Shown: piece by piece, positions 49,713-60,600 of the stretch
Position numbering within the stretch: position 1 is the stretch's first letter
Layout: each line of letters begins with the position of its first letter
From: Dermatophagoides farinae
Lineage: Eukaryota; Arthropoda; Arachnida; Sarcoptiformes; Pyroglyphidae
Assembly (NCBI RefSeq): GCF_024713945.1
Contig: NC_134684.1
Span: 102,001 to 166,000 of the forward strand
Direction of reading: 5' to 3'
Length of the DNA stretch: 64,000 bases
Notes under the pieces: model-generated
Seen by the model: only the letters and a program-made list of their open reading frames with translations
Databases searched by the model: none
What the model was told of the DNA's origin: nothing
Program-made: the position numbers and the translations under genes

Positions 49713-50596
49713 TCAGTCAAGTCTAGTGTTGTCCAATTCTGTCGAATTTGGCACCGTATTGATTTGATCAATAATCTGAACGAGTGGTATGATAAAGTCT
49801 TTATGTTCCAATGGTTCAGTCCAATTCGGTGTCTTCTTAATCACCGAATCACAACGATCATCGTCATCACCGAAATCACCACAACCGACATTCAATAAAT
49901 CTCCCACATAGCCATTGAGTAGATTTTCCACTTCGGGCAAATCATCTGGACATTGATCCTCGAATAAATTCGCTATATTAGTTTTGAATTTGTGATAATT
50001 GCTGTGTTTTTCCAAATGATAATGGTTAGTGGTTAGTATATGCAACTTGAAAACTGAAAATCATGATGATCAATTACTCACCAGCAAAGCAACGGTATGG
50101 TCAATTTTTGGTCTTTGTTCAAATGTTTGATGGAATGAAAATCTCGATTTAAACCAGCCATATATTGATTCAATAGTTTGATATTTTTATTGGCACATTT
50201 GCCAAAACCGATAAAAGCTAGTCGTTTTTTACTGTTACGACAATAAGCACGATTCGTTTTGGTTATGCTGTACAACAGGATCAATATATAACGATTCGTA
50301 TCCGTGTCATAACAATTCTGTGCATTATTCTTGACACATCGTTGCAATGATTTTATATCACGACATCGTTTCTCCATCTGTTTGACACTTGTTGGAAAGA
50401 TGAATTTTTCATCACCAATCATCGTTAATTTTTGGCTACAGGATTCCATCTCTTTATGATCACAAGCCGATCGAATTCGTTTGGCTGTATTGCGACTTTT
50501 CAAACGTTTTGCTGCTGCCTGAGCCATATGATGATGATGATGGTAGCCGAGTATGAAAAAAGTGATGAAAACAAGTAAAAATGGTCGAGAATTCAT
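49713..50596 (-). CDS. Secreted cysteine-rich protein, lineage-specific family
   Basis: Exons 50596-50082 and 50001-49713 join in phase 2 across an 80-bp intron (GTGAGT...ACACAG), giving 267 residues. The N-terminus is a signal peptide ('FLLVFITFFILGY') followed by a His run. The mature part has about 12 cysteines in a spaced pattern (ACDHKEMESC, KRCRDIKSLQRC, NAQNC, AYC, GKC, then LLCC created at the splice, DQC, VGC, DRC), implying several disulfides in a helical secreted domain. The acceptor at 50002 was chosen because nearer AGs lead to stops and because it restores a Cys-Cys pair typical of such domains. I cannot name the family; the spacing recalls small secreted helical Cys domains annotated as DUFs in arthropods and nematodes. 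Function unknown. Confidence 0.75.
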
Positions 50597-51250
50597 TTTG
50601 TTTACTTCTGGTATTCGAATGATAGCTGAAAAAAGAAAAAAGTATATCGAATGTTTAATTTTGTCGTATTTATATAATGATTTTTGTTGGATGGTTATTC
50701 ATCAATTCTTCTAGTGGCTAATGGTATATGATAATAATAACGTTTTCATCATCATGTAGGGTGTAATATTTCGTACCTGTTCGTTGATGACGCCAATCAT
50801 CAATTGTAGAATGTTATGTTATTTTTCTTCATTCTTTGTTGTTTGTTGTATTAATGAAAACAAAACCAAAAAAAAAAAAAAAAACTATCACATGTATATG
50901 TGAAAAGTGAAGTGAATAAACAGCCGATTTTACTTAACACTTTCATCATCATATTTGCAATAACAACAGAAAAAACAAGTGTTGATCCACCTCGAAACTT
51001 GCAAATTAAAAAAAATATAAAGAGATAATTTAATATAACAGCAGGGTACATAGATGTTTTGGCATTCAATCGTTTTGTTTGATTTCGATGGATGAGTTAA
51101 TCAACAACAAAAAACTAATGGATGAAAATAGAATAGAATTGTCTTTATTTTCAATTATAAATAGAAAAAAATTTCACAATGTATTTATTATTTATCTAAT
51201 TCTAGATAGACGTGATATGCTCATGATAATGATGATTCGTTGTCGTCACA
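50597..51250. other. Non-coding spacer between Cys-rich gene and NRF-like gene
   Basis: About 650 bp of AT-rich sequence, with a 15-base A run near 50870. It should contain the upstream region of the left gene and the 3' UTR of the right gene. Confidence 0.45.
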
Positions 51251-54025
51251 TCAGATATTGGTCGATTCAACTCTGGTCAACAGTGATGAATGTTGTTGTT
51301 GTTGCTGCTGCTGCTGAGAATTTTCATATTGATGATGATGAATATTATCGTTTTTCTCGGTCAAATGCACAATGGTATGTGTTTTTTTCATTTGATCACT
51401 AGCTGGCATAAGCATAGATTTTTTAGCATGATCCATCATATGTATGAATGGTGATTCGAATAGAATGGTGAATAGGAAAGCCAATACATAGGAAATGGAT
51501 ACCATACTTGCGAACAAAAATATGATCGATGTTGGACGAATGTCGATCAGATCACGTTTCGTACCAATTAGAACGGTGAATGTCCATGCATGTACAAGAT
51601 AGACGGCGAATGTCATTCGTGACAGCGGTCGTATAGCTGACCATGATAATAGACGGCCAATCCACATTCCATTACCGGTGATACAAAGCCAGATGATCAA
51701 TGTTAAAACTAATGCCCATAATATACGATTCAATGGAAAGATCAGGGCCGACCAAATCGGTTCATATGGACGACCGAATAGATAGAAACTATTGGAATAG
51801 ACGCACGATAAATAACCACAAAATGCCAGCAACCAGAAAGCAACCTTCTTTCCCTGTTTTTGTCACAAGATAAACAAATGTATTATTATGGTTTGATTAA
51901 AAATCATTTCTCACCTCTCTCTCGCTCTCTCATTGGCAAAACAAAAGTAGCATACCTTGTTCATTTGTAATTTACATGAAATGTTGGAAATATTTTGATG
52001 TAGATAAACACCGAAAATGAAACCGATGAAAAAAACATTACAATGATTCCATGGTTTATGAAAGAATCTGACCAATTCGCTTGGTTTGCCTTGTTCATCC
52101 AAAAAATCACTTTTACTTGTCACCACATAGCCTGGTGGTAATTGGCCAATATAAATGATAAGGCTACTTAGTAAAGTGAACATTAGAACCAAAAATTTAG
52201 CGAAAATTAATCCAATTCGAGCATTTTTAAGCATAGCGATGATGGGCAATAATGCAAGCCAATGTAATTGCATATCGGCAGCTAAAAACCAGGTATGAAT
52301 TGCACACTATTGATGTTGTGGTCACATGATGATGATAAGAAAAAAACAAATAAAAAGAACAAATTACAAACAACCAACGAATGAATGAATGAGTGAATAA
52401 ATATAGCACACTTACGATATTTTCATTTTCAATGATATTTTGCATATAAATAAGGTTATGCCACCAAGTACGATGACATTGGCCAATCATACGGTCATTG
52501 TACATCTTCCAAAGTGGTCCATCAAACATGATCGGCAACAGGCTTGTAAGTAACATGAATGCCACCAATTGTGGCGTCAATCGAAGATAACGAAGCACTA
52601 GATAGGCAATTGAACTGAAATTTTCCAATTTTCCTTTCGTATATCCAAGCGTTATATATGATGTTAGCAAACCAGTAATGTAGAAAAATGTTTCCACGGA
52701 AAAATGTGTTCGAAAAAACGGTTGCTTCATCAAATCGGAAAGGCTTTCTTTAATAAGAAATGTATCGCCTATGCAGTAAAACAAATAAAAGCAATTCCAA
52801 TCAATCAATTTCAATGAATTTCAGCCATCGCTTACGGTAAACATTCAGATTGTTCCAATCAAGTGTATGACCCATAATGATCCAACAAATGGTTAGCACA
52901 CGAATACCATGAACACAGGATAATTCATCATTACCGCTAGAGGATGTTTGTGTCATGAATAACTTGCGGCAATTTCGAGCCGGTGAAAAACATGCAAGGA
53001 ATTCATTTTGACCTGTGTGAGTAATTGAGTAATTGTAAAGTTTAACATTTTCTTTTTTAGAATCACTTACCTTTCTGACCATGTATATAATCATGTACAA
53101 GAGCGACGGTAGACAGTGCCGAAACGATGAACAACATTAAACTGAAATTTTTAAAAATTCAACTTTATCACCGAAAAAAAATATTCAATTCATCATTAAT
53201 GAATTCTTACATGGCAAGAAATTGTGGCAAATTTGGACGCCAACGTTCCGTATGTCGATATTCACATGAAAGCTTTTTCAATTCCAATCCAATTTTTTCG
53301 GCATCTTTTTAGAAAAGAAAAAAATAAATTTATCAATCCATATGATTGAAATCTTGATTGATTCTTTGAAGAAATTTGGTAAGCTATAAACACAGTGGTC
53401 ATTATTATTTACCATGGCTTGCTACAAGTTCAATATCCTGTTCGGTACAGGCTTTTGGTACACAGATACCGAATTGAAAATTAGCATAATAAAATATGGA
53501 AGTAATCTCTTCCAATCGATCACGATAGATCAGATCGGCAATAGAAGGATGTAATGGTTTCATTCGATGATTAAGATTATGATGTGAAGGCATAGGTTTA
53601 GGCAATGGTATTGATAGATCAATAAGACAATATTGAGGTTGTATAGGTGAATCGAATAGCTGATTAATGGAAAGACATTGATCATAATGACCATAATCAG
53701 TTATTGTACCGGCAAAAATACCTGGCGGTGGTATACGAGCCCATGATTGAAATAAGTACAATGCCCATCTTCGATCATGATGTAATGATTTAAGACTAAT
53801 AAGTAGATCACGACGACATTGATCACTTGGCCATTGCTGATGATGAGTGTGATTATTATCGGGAGGCGATGAAGCCATAGACCAATACCATAATCGTTGA
53901 TAATAATAATAATTGGGTCCAATCCATTTACCAATATGAATAGTGGATTCAGTACAATAATTGCCGAATACAAACACCAACACTAACAACGAATTCAGTT
54001 GGAAACTTTTCCACGATAACAACAT
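51251..54025 (-). CDS. nrf-6: Nose-resistant-to-fluoxetine (NRF-6)-like membrane acyltransferase
   Basis: Seven exons on the minus strand: 54025-53413, 53304-53211, 53141-53071, 53012-52836, 52768-52416, 52306-51956, 51853-51251. All are GT...AG and in frame, giving 753 residues. The signal peptide is followed by the NRF ectodomain, with 'PPGIFAGTITDYGHYDQCL' and 'YCLIDLSIPLPKP' as family marks and paired Cys. The integral-membrane acyltransferase-3 domain follows: 'HGIRVLTICWIIMGHTL' with the conserved His of this family, 'FSVETFFYITGLL', 'WWHNLIYMQN', 'HTWFLAADMQLHW', and late helices with 'LSRMTFAVYLVHAW'. About ten or more helices; a poly-Gln cytoplasmic tail ends it. In C. elegans NRF-6 acts in lipid and drug transport across epithelia; the reaction is not established. 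ATG 54025 is the first in frame and opens a good signal peptide. Confidence 0.92.
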
Positions 54026-55179
54026 GACAATGTGGATCCGTGTTACAATCAACAAATATTGAAATGCTGGAACAATTTTTGATCCACATCAATTTGTCGT
54101 TGTTGGTCGACACAATGAAAAGGGAAAAATAATCTAGAGTTTTGACAAAAACACTAGAAGAGTCTATAGACCTACACATCATCATCATCATTGAAAAATC
54201 TGTACATCTCAGCTTGTTATCAATCTTGTTGTTGTTGTTGTTGTTGTTGAAAAATCGAATTCACTATTTTTCATCCAGAACAACAACAACAATGCCATAC
54301 TGTGCACAATGTTTTGTAACACTTGAAACAATTGATTCATAATCTCTTCCGGTCGATAAATACATCGTTCACGCATATAACAAAGAGAGACAACTAGATC
54401 AATTGATTAAATATATGCGTGTCCATCCGTTGTGCTTGTCGTTTCTGATGGAAATTTTTATTTTTTATTTTTTGCATACAATGATGTGATTAAATATTTC
54501 ATTTTTAAAAAAAAGAATGAAACTCAATTGGATACTCAACTCAGTAGGATGATGATGATAATTTTTGAAGGATGAAGGTCTCTCATACTCACTTTTCACT
54601 TGAATGCCCTTAGTAAAAAAAATCATTTGGTCATCTCTTTTTTCGGTGGAAATGATAACAAAATCAATCAATCAATCATAGTATTCAGTTTTGTACACGC
54701 ACACACACACATACACACATCCCGATCGATAAATAAACTTTAGGAACTGTTGTTCTGTTTCACTATCAAAAATTAATTTAACCAAAAAATTGCTGATGAT
54801 AAGCAAGTAATTAATTCTGAATGAAACCTTGATCGATCAACCATTTTTTCAAATCTATGTGGAATTCAAAAAGGAATCAATAATAATTCTGAGGAAAATG
54901 ATTTCTGATTTCTTAATGATAATAAAAAACTCCAAATTTAAAAAATAAAAATTTCACAGGAATTATGACAAACCAAAATAGCAATCAGTGTTTATAGATA
55001 GCTAAAAGTTATTGCATGTTTCTTACATACCATACACACAGACACATGCTTATGAAGCAACTACTGAAACAAATTACAATAATCAAAACGAAAAAGTTCA
55101 AGTTCAAGTAAACAAGAAATTGTAAGCATAGATTGATTAATAATTAATAATTTCTTCCTAAACTAATTATAAATGTTAC
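54026..55179. other. Interval between the two NRF-domain first exons
   Basis: About 1.15 kb containing the presumed promoter of the 54025 exon. I looked on the minus strand for transmembrane acyltransferase exons that would complete the 55876 exon and found none. It contains short CAA/GTT and CA repeats. Confidence 0.5.
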
Positions 55180-55876
55180 CTTTTAGAATTGTTTCAAGAT
55201 CATCTTGATTGCAAACGATTGGCATACAAATAGCCATCTCAACATATGTATAATAGAATATGGAGGAATATTTTTCCAAATGTTCATATATTGTTGATTC
55301 ATTTCGACGCGGAAATGTTTCGGGTAATAAACCGAGAGTTTTATGAAAAAAATTATGATTTGGTGGAGGTTGTGATTTTGGCATCGGCATACTGAAATCT
55401 ACAAGACAATATTGTGAACGTATCGGTTCGATAATCGATAAACATTGATCATAATCACCATAATCGGTGATCGTTCCACGAAACATTCCACTTGGAGGCA
55501 TTTTGGACCATGAATCAAACATTTGAAAAGGCCATGCTTTTCGATTTTGTGGCGATACATCGAACATATCGGTCAATGCGTGCCGGATATCATGACGACA
55601 AGCCTCGCTTACATTATTCCATTTAGATGCCACTTGGTTTAGATCCAATAATCGTGGCATAAATAATTGCCGTATGGTATCATCATTTAGATTTAATAAT
55701 GGTTGCCATTTACCATCGATTACCGGCAAAGAAGATGTTGTCGTTGATGATGGTGTCGATTTAATTGAGATCACAACATTAGTTAAAATCACAACACCAA
55801 CAATAACAAACAATGATGAAAACAGTGAGAATGATGGCCATCTAAATGGCTTTTGTTCACTGTACCATTGATACAT
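55180..55876 (-). CDS. NRF-domain exon: alternative first exon of the NRF-6-like gene, or truncated paralogue
   Basis: ATG 55876 opens a 232-codon exon ending at a GTAACA donor at 55179, in phase 1. It has a signal-anchor helix ('LFSSLFVIVGVVILTNVVI'), then an NRF ectodomain closely parallel to the 54025 exon: 'ACRHDIRHALTD', 'PPSGMFRGTITDYGDYDQCL', 'QYCLVDFSMPMPK', 'YSSIFYYTYVEMAICMP'. The homology ends at the same point as the 54025 first exon and with the same splice phase. Splicing to 53304 would give Lys-Asp-Ala-Glu and continue in frame into the acyltransferase body. No acyltransferase exons of its own lie in between. It could instead be a secreted or membrane-anchored NRF-only protein; reading through the donor gives a stop after five more codons (237 aa, ending at 55163). 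Confidence 0.8.
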
Positions 55877-57614
55877 TGATCATTGATAATGAATGAATTC
55901 ATAAATTCACAAAACTATTGAATAGTTAATCAAATTTCAATCAAATCTAGAAAAATTGAAAAAACATTTATACCATCGGAATGCTCAATTTATATACATA
56001 CATACCATTCATTTTTTCAACGAATCAAAGAATTGGGTGGAGAGAGAGATAGAGAAAGAGGGAAAACTTGTAGAATGCTGTAGAATGGATTGAAAGATTA
56101 TCATTATCATTATTATTGTAAGCTAATGATTATGATTTGCGTGTGTATGCAATGTTTTGCAGTGAATTTCAAATGGAAGTGGTCATATCATGATGATGAT
56201 AATGAATTATTGGCACATTGGAAACTACCTGTAATCATTAATCAATAAAGGAGAAAAACGAGAGTTCATCATAACAAGCATTCTGTTCGTTTTCTGTTTG
56301 TCTTTCCAGTTGTCATTTCAATTATCGATTTTGGCATAAAACAACCACCCAATAATTTAATTTCCTTTGGCACAAAAAATGTATATGCAATTCCGATCAT
56401 GTGATGAAATATAAAGAAAGAAAAAATGAACAATAATAAATCCATAATCGCGATAAGAGAAAAAAATCTGTCAACTGATTGATCAATCAAACAATCAATC
56501 GGTTGGAAAAAAAATTAATTATTTAATGATGATGATTTTTTTTTGAATATGAAAATGATAGATAAATAAATAGCCAGAAAATATGATTCATTCATTCCGT
56601 TTTGTCCGACTGATGGTGATTGATGTTTTTTAATAATAATGATAATCATCATCATCATCATCATCATCATTAATGTTCTAATGTTATTGTTAAAATTTTC
56701 GATAATAAAAAAATTGATGAAGAAATTTTTATTTGTTCATTGATCAATGATATGATGATTTTTTGTTTTGTTCTCAAGTTCAAGTTTTTTTCGGTGATCA
56801 GCAGTAGTTTTTTCATTTCATTTCGAATAAAAAAAATCTTGAAATGACAAACATGTGCATATCTATGTACTAATATAATACGTGTGTATAATTATCGATG
56901 ATGATGATCCTTGAATATAATTTTAATGCAACCATTTTCTTTTATTTTTTTTTTGTTGTTTTGAATTTTATTTGCCCAAAACAAACACACGCAACACACA
57001 AATCCTTGATCTTGAACGAGCTCTCAATTTATATTTCAGTATATTAGCATCATCATTTCCAGAAACAAAAAAAAGTTGCATTTGTTGTACACTTTTATTT
57101 CGACAACAACAAACAACTTGTTGCCTCTATGTGTGTGTGTGTCTGTGTCTGTCTGTACGACGCACAGTCATCATCATCATTATTAATGAATAATCTATAG
57201 ATAGGAAGGTCATCTAGTTTTCAAATCATTAGATTATCAAGGGATATCATTGCAAAATTCATTCGTAATTCGACATTTACATGAATATATCAAACAGAAA
57301 AAATCCGCAATCGCATGGCAATTGTAAAATCGACGATTGATGATGATGGCTTCATTTTCAACGATAAATTAATCAATCATATCTATGCAGTGGATTTTTT
57401 GGAAAAAATTATCTTTCAATTATGGGAAAAAATAACATACCAAGAAGATGTGGTCAATTCAAATCATGATACTTTTCTTGAGTTTCCTTTCCATTTTTTT
57501 CGTCAGTTTGATATTAACTAATGATCATCAAATATAATCAGATTTTCACTTTCTCACTTTCAAAATTTGCTTTATTTATTTATAATTAAATAGTATATAG
57601 TATTATTATTAATA
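55877..57614. other. Non-coding region between NRF exon and UBR gene
   Basis: About 1.7 kb of AT-rich sequence with a CAT run at 56647-56670 and GT runs near 57130-57141. It should contain the upstream region of the left exon and the short UBR 3' UTR. No gene is supported. Confidence 0.45.
57571..57580 (-). terminator. Overlapping AATAAA signals downstream of UBR
   Basis: TTTATTTATT on the plus strand gives two overlapping AATAAA hexamers on the minus strand, about 35 bp past the UBR stop codon at 57615. Confidence 0.6.
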
Positions 57615-60600
57615 TCACATCATATTCCAATTAATGCTTGGTAATGAATTCGATGTTTCCATTAGATGAACAATTTGCTCAGGTATACCGTGGCGAAACC
57701 ATATTTTATATAATTGTTCATATGCCGGTTCGGAAAGAAACATTGGATGACCACGGCAAAGACCGGAATCGGTTTCACCAAATTTATCCACATATGGTGA
57801 TGCAAGATAACAACCTGAATAAAATTAATAATAAATTATTTATTAAACTTGAATGAATAAAATAACAACATATAATACCTCGACTTCGGGATGTCAACAA
57901 CAGAATCTTGTTATCACGTATACGAAGAAAAATGCCCATCGAAGCCGAACATTGTTGTGAATGATAGGTACAGGCGCCCACCGATTCTTTACCCACACGA
58001 TGTTGGCAGCAATAATTTTGTGAACAAAGAATTTCTCCACATATCAAACACATGGTTGGATAACGACTTTCACCACCATTCGAATTCGGACAGGTAAAAT
58101 TAACCACCGAATTGATGAGATCACTAAAATCGTATGGCAACTTCACCAAACGATTGATTTCATGTGGCTGTCGTAGGTAGAGATTCGATGAGGACAAACA
58201 TGTTCGAACAGTACCAGCAGTTGGTTGTTCAAATAAAGTCGATAGCTTTTGGTGTCGTGTCCAAATCAGACACAAATGACGTAGATTGATCGATTGCAAT
58301 AACAAACCGAGATCACGCTCAATGGCCAGATATCGGCATAGCAGGTCATATTCAATTGTTGTAGTGATGTTTTTATCTTTACTTTGATTCCACAATCGTT
58401 CTGGCCATCGAATTTCGGTCAAGAAATACGCAAATAGTGCACTCGATCGAAGAAACGGTAATGTACGTTGTTTAATGAAAGCTTCAATTTGGCTTGCATT
58501 TGCCATCAATTCATCTTCAGAAAATTTATGACCAGCAGCAATCAAGATGTCTTTACAGAACGAAGCCACCAACAAAGGACTGTTGTTGGGTGAATTTGAT
58601 TTTGAGTCATCATCATCGGATTTCAACTGTGATGATGATGTACATTCATTGCCATCCACATCCATTGGTTCATCAATTGGTGTCGAATCGACTAAATTAT
58701 CATTTGTCAACACAATCTAATGATCAATCAATTTGGTAAAATTGATTAATTTTTAAGAAAAAAAAAATTATCAAATTTTCTACACTTACCTGTACAATGT
58801 GAAAAGTTAGCATTAATTCAATGATATTTCGTTCAAAATTATTGCCAATGGGCATAATAAAATTTTTCTGGTGTTTACTTCGATCATCTTGGTGATGTAC
58901 CCAAAATAAACGATTAGATTGATTATTGGGTGAATCATCGACGAAAAATGATGGTGAAGTTATCATTAAGGAAATTAACAATGTAAATGCATCAACATCT
59001 AATAGATGGTAAGGACTTGATTGATAGACAGTTGTGACAAGCAGGTAGTTCATTAAATACAAAAATACACGTCGTTGATTTAAGGTATGCATAAAATTTG
59101 ATTGTACACGAGCCATCTTGATCAATGCTTTTAGACATTGATATTGACGCGTATCGACCATCTGATCCATTGACAAACGTTTTCGTTCATCAAGCCGCAT
59201 TGAACGTTCCATCACTTGAAGTGTATACGATATCGACCAATTTAAACATTGAATCAAATCATGAGGAGCATCTAATCCGGATGTTAATGCATCATCAGGA
59301 CACTGTTGACAATTGGCCATAAAATTCAGTATAAAATTTTTAATGTAACAAAATTCTTTAAAATTAATTACTCACGATAGTTTTTTCGTTTATCGTTTTA
59401 TAAAAATTGCCCACAATTTCACCACGAATATCACGTTGTGATTCGACAGCATCCACATCGATAATCGGTTGTCTATTTAGATCATATTCTTGCTTGAAGG
59501 ATTGCATCGTTTGTTTCAATGAATCATCGGTCAATGAAGCGATTAATTGAGAAAAACCTTTAGAAAATCCAGGAACTTTGCCTGATGAATAAACTTTTAA
59601 AAGGTTTATCATACAAAAAAAATAAAAGATTTCCAAATAAAATAAAATCTAAAACTTACTTAGATCATTGACATCGTTGATCCAAATCGAATTACAGCTT
59701 TGTAATATAACCAACATTGCATTAAGCCATTGATCTATTGTCATTTCAGCGGCAATTGTTGCCGGTTTTACAGGCTGTGCTAATGATGGCATAATCGGTA
59801 TAGTGACATTGGATAATGTTTCACACAATGGACAAAGAAATTCCCGTTTATGTAGATCATATGTAACACGTGGATAACGATGTGCTGATCGTCGACGTTC
59901 ATTCAGCATGGTTGTTTCGAAATATTTTTCAAAACAATCATTATGCATATAATGAGTGCATGTATTTATGAATGGACAGAAATTATGATCCGATCTTGTT
60001 AGCATACAATTAATATTTTCCGTATCTTTCCATGTTGGCATCGAACGATTTTTCGACAAAACAGTCGATTGTTGTATAAAACCGGCTAAAAGTAAATATC
60101 GACCATTATTTGTATTCACATCCTGGCTTTCCAAACACAATATACAGGTGAATACATCATCCGAATTCATTATTCTATTATTATAAGTAGTACGTCGTGC
60201 TCCAAATGCAACACCAAGTTCGCCGGAATCATTTTCACCGGTCATATCGGTCATTGAAACATCTTTGTTCTTGCTGCTATTATTGTTATCGATAGAAACG
60301 GGATTTTCTTTGAAATATTTTTCATTTTCTTTCAAAAATGAACGCTGTTGTTGTTGCATTAGCTGTAAAATTCGTTCTTGACGAGCTGCCGCCATTTTTC
60401 GTCGTCTGGAACGTTCTTGTTCCTGATGATGACCGAATGTTGTAGAATTTCGATTCTGTTCAATCAATTGTTGTTGTGGTTCATCTGTCGAAATCGATGA
60501 TGATGACGATGTTGATGATGAATGTAGCAGCATCACTTGTTTGAAACGATCCATACACCAATCATAAAGGCCTTGATGCATTTCTACACGTGTCAAAATG

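Follow-up and report, generated by a model that had tools for sequence, protein, structure and literature searches.

Two tandem NRF-domain exons before a single acyltransferase body in Dermatophagoides farinae: probable alternative first exons of one gene

The window analyzed here is a 64,000-nucleotide (nt) stretch of the Dermatophagoides farinae genome (contig NC_134684.1, positions 102,001 to 166,000; coordinates below are those of the window), and our subject is a minus-strand locus at which two homologous exons, A and B, each encoding an NRF domain, lie in front of one set of acyltransferase exons. Exon A (55180..55876; 697 nt, 232 codons plus 1 nt) encodes a hydrophobic N-terminus, a conserved linker resembling WQPLLNLNDD and the NRF domain, and ends at a phase-1 donor at 55179 (AAAG/GTAACA). 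Exon B (53413..54025; 613 nt, 204 codons plus 1 nt) encodes a signal-peptide-like N-terminus, a shorter linker and an NRF domain, and ends at a phase-1 donor at 53412 (CATG/GTAAAT). Downstream lie E1 (53211..53304; 94 nt), whose acceptor suits both A and B, and the body exons E2 (53071..53141), E3 (52836..53012, which includes CVHGIRVLTICWIIMGHT), E4 (52416..52768), E5 (51956..52306, encoding part of the acyltransferase domain) and E6 (51251..51853), which carries the stop codon. An earlier model-made annotation, hereafter the original prediction, had described two homologous NRF exons with phase-1 GT donors, and its coordinates and frames for both were exact. It had also described the continuation of B into six acyltransferase exons, and B spliced in silico to E1–E6 indeed gives an uninterrupted protein of 753 amino acids; A spliced to the same exons gives one of 781 amino acids, likewise without an internal stop. 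As that annotation stated, A has no body of its own before the next first exon: no significant match to an acyltransferase body, or to a relic of one, was found in the 1,154-nt A–B spacer (54026..55179).

By domain content the locus belongs to the NRF-acyltransferase family, which includes NRF-6, NDG-4 and Drop-dead. The Pfam NRF model PF20146 scored 75.5 bits against exon A and 83.3 bits against exon B (cut-off 27), and the in silico isoform A, the only isoform scanned as a whole protein, gave 71.7 bits for NRF and 79.8 bits for Acyl_transf_3 (PF01757, cut-off 31); isoform B carries the same body. In Kyte-Doolittle profiles, both isoforms rise above threshold once at the N-terminus and in eight segments of the body. 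Searches of PDB returned a single match at chance level (E 0.47), and searches of NCBIfam returned no match. Exon A encodes five cysteines that are common to B (93, 145, 157, 217 and 222), and the next, Cys246, which is the sixth of the NRF set, is encoded by E1; the five close paralogues described below have a cysteine after their CxPxxC motif at a comparable place. The ectodomain of either A or B would thus be complete only once the exon is spliced to E1.

A genome-wide search with the Pfam NRF model found at least 22 NRF exons, 21 of which, B among them, are followed on the same strand by an acyltransferase body. Exon A is the sole exception, in that the next NRF exon comes before any body. 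The closest other pair of NRF exons, on C4, is separated by 9.7 kb, and both members have a body; in a distant paralogue, C6:3171653, body frames lie about 1.5–2 kb downstream of the NRF exon. Spliced alignment of the five closest paralogues (C6, C3a, C1, C9b and C3b) gave models that each comprise a single NRF region and a body belonging to it, with several intron positions in common. A further paralogue, at C9:1773071-1775152, runs through NRF and body in one open frame of 914 codons, intronless there as a retrocopy would be. Searches for relatives in viral contigs found none, and searches in genome contigs gave 14 pattern matches, none of which was confirmed.

Exon A is intact, as conserved as B and not decaying. 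A stop-free run of its 232 codons has a probability of 4e-9 at the local base composition. The two exons encode sequences that are 41% identical, and in the columns where six relatives agree, A keeps 33/35 and B 33/35, with the paralogues at 33/37 (C6), 33/34 (C3a), 33/39 (C1), 33/35 (C9b) and 33/33 (C3b) in the same test; of the 40 columns that are invariant in the five paralogues, A and B each keep 35. The linker WQPLLNLNDD is kept in A, occurs in varied forms in C6, C1, C9b and C3b, and is mostly lost from B. Identity between A and B at codon positions 1, 2 and 3 is 54, 63 and 42%, respectively, and at four-fold sites it is 38% (24 sites only) against a chance identity of ~31% calculated from third-base counts. 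Because third positions and four-fold sites are near random and second positions are at 63%, the copies look old and constrained at the protein level. A coding score trained on 2,077 codons, with a non-coding reference that included part of the A–B spacer, gave +0.27 bits per codon in the A frame and +0.35 in the B frame, and was below zero in all five remaining frames of either exon. Under a neutral mutation model with an assumed share of indels, A would be broken with 95% probability past 0.03–0.07 substitutions per site. Stop-free, well preserved at the conserved columns, and followed by a spacer without a significant body match, exon A does not resemble a pseudogene, and a loss of its body is possible if very recent.

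The two donors lie at nearly the same point of the homology, 31 nt (A) and 34 nt (B) after the second cysteine of CxPxxC. The phase is shared, as the original prediction had it, but the position differs by one codon, A being the shorter. A phase-1 donor-like site at this point is a feature of 12 of the 22 NRF exons: A, at 31 nt; B, C1, C8z, C4a, C8y, C4b, C4c, C6b and C10c, each with GT[AG][AT] at 34 nt; and C10b and C2, in which the same 34-nt phase-1 site was read by eye from sequence strings. Within 60 nt there is no donor-like site in C6, C3a, C9b, C3b or C3d; donor-like sites are present in C9a, C10a, C5 and C9c, none of them at that spot, and C3c was not scorable for donor position. The intron itself was modelled in the A/B gene and in C1. 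A phase-1 intron at this point is most simply taken as ancestral to the NRF family, and a donor inherited in this way would leave a duplicated exon splice-compatible with bodies of the same kind, which is how the sharing of a body between exons can work.

Splice sites were scored with matrices built from 28 introns of the A/B gene and the five paralogues, leaving out three doubtful introns as well as the sites of A, B and E1. The donor of A scored 6.19, above 7 of the 28 reference donors and at a level matched by 2.5% of the 6,361 GTs in the window; that of B scored 7.81. The E1 acceptor scored 4.62, above 13 of the 28 reference acceptors, although the same level is reached by 11% of all AGs. 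Upstream of A, the 400 nt before the ATG contain three TATAWAW matches (0.3 expected) at 55996, 55994 and 55972, the first two overlapping; these lie 120–96 nt before the ATG (55966..55996) and are a candidate promoter.

Phylogenetic trees were built from 20 of the 22 NRF exons (C9:2586176 and C3:1778274 were left out) and from 11 bodies, with topology tests on 10 NRF rows; two tree rows carried X at stops where introns had been read through. With distant paralogues as the outgroup, A, B and their body fell outside the group of the five close paralogues, a placement with strong support from the body (99/99) and weak support from the NRF part. In approximately unbiased (AU) tests, joining A to B gave p=0.39 and joining A to the five paralogues likewise 0.39; the value was 0.89 for B with the five, 0.14 for A with C6 and 0.13 for B with C3a. 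Of the topologies tested, just one, with A nested alongside C6 and C3a, could be excluded (p=0.046). The pair may go back to an old tandem duplication, either of the first exon or of the gene followed by the loss of one body.

Vertebrate detoxification genes are known to have an alternative first-exon arrangement. We consider it probable, from the layout of the locus and its reading frames, that A and B are likewise alternative first coding exons of one gene, organized in the manner of UGT1 and GCNT2. This reading best accommodates an exon A that is intact and conserved like B, the position of A as the only bodyless member of 22, a spacer without a relic and an in-frame splice to E1. In the proposed mechanism, each first exon would supply a membrane-targeting N-terminus and the NRF ectodomain through its fifth conserved cysteine, and the phase-1 donor of either A or B would be joined to the common E1, which adds the sixth cysteine and leads into the shared acyltransferase body. 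A transcript initiated at A would skip B along with the intron, as in UGT1-type genes, and the choice of first exon would set the outer domain. Homologous first coding exons of the same phase, both constrained and arranged in tandem before one constant region, make this a candidate variable-first-exon gene, an assignment that hinges on the putative A-to-E1 junction proposed from frame compatibility. Transcription from A, that junction, separate promoters and a functional difference between the ectodomains are what we infer from this arrangement. More tentatively, the locus may produce the same transmembrane acyltransferase with either outer domain, A or B, as interchangeable modules, and perhaps with a third, hybrid one made through a donor at 55612, so that acceptor or partner specificity would be conferred in the style of UGT1 and the last disulfide completed after splicing to E1.

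Several observations weigh against alternative first exons. The equal phase of the two donors, which the original prediction had used as an argument for joint use, was rejected as proof of it, since the same donor occurs in 12 of 22 NRF exons and its inheritance in the family removes the coincidence; the proposal of one body with two ectodomains stands as the best-supported reading on the other grounds given above. A stronger donor lies inside exon A, at 55612 (10.9 versus 6.19 at A's own). The putative A-to-E1 intron measures 1,875 nt, whereas the other modelled introns are 54–109 nt long, bar a doubtful one of 1,445 nt; from the NRF exon of C6:3171653 to its first clear body frame the distance is likewise about 1.5 kb. 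At 53982, 43 nt into exon B, lies an in-frame acceptor with a score of 4.27, near the 4.62 of E1, and skipping of B is thus not assured. The first 50 codons of exon A score only +0.07 bits per codon, and the AU tests fit sister and non-sister orders of A and B alike. The proposal of two alternative promoters is at best half supported: TATA-like boxes lie before A, but no TATA or initiator (Inr) match was found in the 400 nt upstream of the B ATG, and one promoter whose transcripts carry a spliced 5′ leader may be the alternative to two.

The principal alternative starts from the truncated tandem duplicate that the original prediction had also named: exon A would be the unused 5′ part of such a gene copy, its body having been lost so recently that decay does not yet show. 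The family is rich in whole-gene paralogues, about half of which have an exon-1 donor of this type; body loss would give exactly this picture, and the trees permit A as an old separate gene. Yet A is fully open, retains a usable donor and is not relaxed relative to B, and the spacer holds no body relic that we could find. The loss would have to be both clean and recent, within the 0.03–0.07 substitutions per site allowed by the neutral model, yet the silent sites between A and B look saturated. We therefore regard a truncated duplicate as disfavored and unlikely, while keeping it as the foremost rival. Another possibility is an artefact in which the body of A was lost from the assembly. Near-identical tandem copies can be collapsed by assemblers, but the displayed sequence of the locus has no run of N, and collapse of an A-body-B-body array should eliminate B, or yield a single exon with a single body, rather than A, spacer, B and body. 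We consider such an artefact very improbable.

Two further explanations keep exon A in use and change what it is joined to. Were A and B spliced into one transcript, the product would be a protein with two NRF domains or one with the stalk of A on the NRF core of B, the latter a third ectodomain made by joining 55612 to the acceptor at 53836 (5.77); both of these sites are phase 0 and lie just before the first NRF cysteine. The acceptor at 53659 (7.31) in B is also in frame with 55612, and acceptors in frame with A's own donor include, besides 53982, those at 53721 (3.35) and 54066 (-0.18) and two below -1.9. However, 20 of the 65 AGs between A and E1 score at least 2.5, and with acceptor-like AGs this common some in-frame acceptors are expected by chance. 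Splicing at 54066 or 53982 would leave the hydrophobic, signal-like stretch of B inside the protein. The GTAAGC at 55612 codes part of an N-x-S/T sequon that is kept there in 3 of the 5 close paralogues, and all five read through the matching place, where they are intronless. Joint inclusion of A and B thus seems improbable. Slightly less probable still is that A is left unspliced and encodes a stand-alone NRF protein, secreted or anchored. Read-through of the A donor does meet an in-frame stop after five codons (open reading frame 55163-55879), but an early stop is not special to A, in that B and other donor-bearing members also stop soon after their donors. Past that stop the first AATAAA or ATTAAA is 695 nt away, as against 61 nt past the stop of the A/B gene, where E6 is followed by AATAAA, and 34 nt in the upstream neighbor. 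This spacing is weak evidence because the A–B spacer as a whole would be expected to contain only about 3.3 such signals and has two (AATAAA at 54469 and 54462; no ATTAAA). A protein of this kind would also have five cysteines without the sixth, and the usable donor has been kept.

The surroundings of the locus are occupied on the same strand. Upstream, at 57615-60000 and probably beyond, lies the C-terminal part of a gene for an N-degron E3 ligase of the UBR/PRT6 type, identified by PF18995 PRT6_C (E 4e-51), and downstream, at 50000-50596, is a small secreted-looking protein with cysteines, whose resemblance to CPG4 is sub-threshold (E 0.0037, 18.2 bits; cut-off 32.7). Within the locus itself, an ATG at 54089 on the minus strand, upstream of B, opens a frame that overlaps the B start out of frame and ends at 53949 (inside the open reading frame 53949-54260); it could dampen translation of B if the B transcript starts upstream of 54089. 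An Rfam search of 50500-58000 gave no match, and direct repeats of at least 25 nt in 53000-57600 are weak (72–81%).

If alternative first exons are confirmed, comparison of two isoforms with a constant enzyme would show what the ectodomain contributes, in a well-studied allergen species. As of 2013, according to the accessible part of one report, neither Drop-dead nor any of the other 16 Drosophila NRF proteins had a reported biochemical function (PMC3707901), and NDG-4 is described elsewhere as a predicted acyltransferase acting in the distribution of lipophilic factors (PMC3919970). Among the open-licence papers listed in our searches (20 of 3,172 for one search, every paper returned for the others), judged by titles and the beginnings of abstracts, none deals with alternative first exons in an NRF gene, and we found none in that literature that pairs the NRF name with Dermatophagoides. 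The locus would offer a neat instance, open to testing, of a gene plan already known, in a family for which those papers list no such arrangement.

Like NRF-6 and NDG-4 of Caenorhabditis elegans and Drop-dead of Drosophila, the locus combines an N-terminal, cysteine-rich NRF domain with an Acyl_transf_3 membrane body, a fusion named NRF-AT3 for Drop-dead and nematode NRF proteins in the accessible text of PMC12423673. It departs from their plan in having two NRF exons for one body, whereas the other 20 NRF exons of the genome each have their own. Closer to home, the accessible part of the work on chelicerate sDscam genes (PMC5775551) describes alternative promoters for their 5′ cassettes; these genes share with the mite locus the use of alternative 5′ cassettes with shared 3′ exons, but encode immunoglobulin adhesion receptors rather than an enzyme and have up to 62 cassettes. 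The nearest parallels in gene plan are UGT1 and GCNT2, described in the available portion of PMC1885805 as having variable first exons that lie in tandem, are driven by promoters of their own and are spliced to constant exons; the variable exons of GCNT2 number only two in opossum, chicken and frog. As far as those descriptions reach, the likeness is that each first exon provides a variable domain along with its own segment for targeting or membrane insertion, in the same frame, before one constant set of exons for a membrane enzyme, and the difference is that UGT1 and GCNT2 are vertebrate genes of an unrelated protein family, while the mite locus has two exons with putative junctions and promoters. 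If the proposed splicing holds, the UGT1/GCNT2 gene plan would also apply to a membrane enzyme of an invertebrate.

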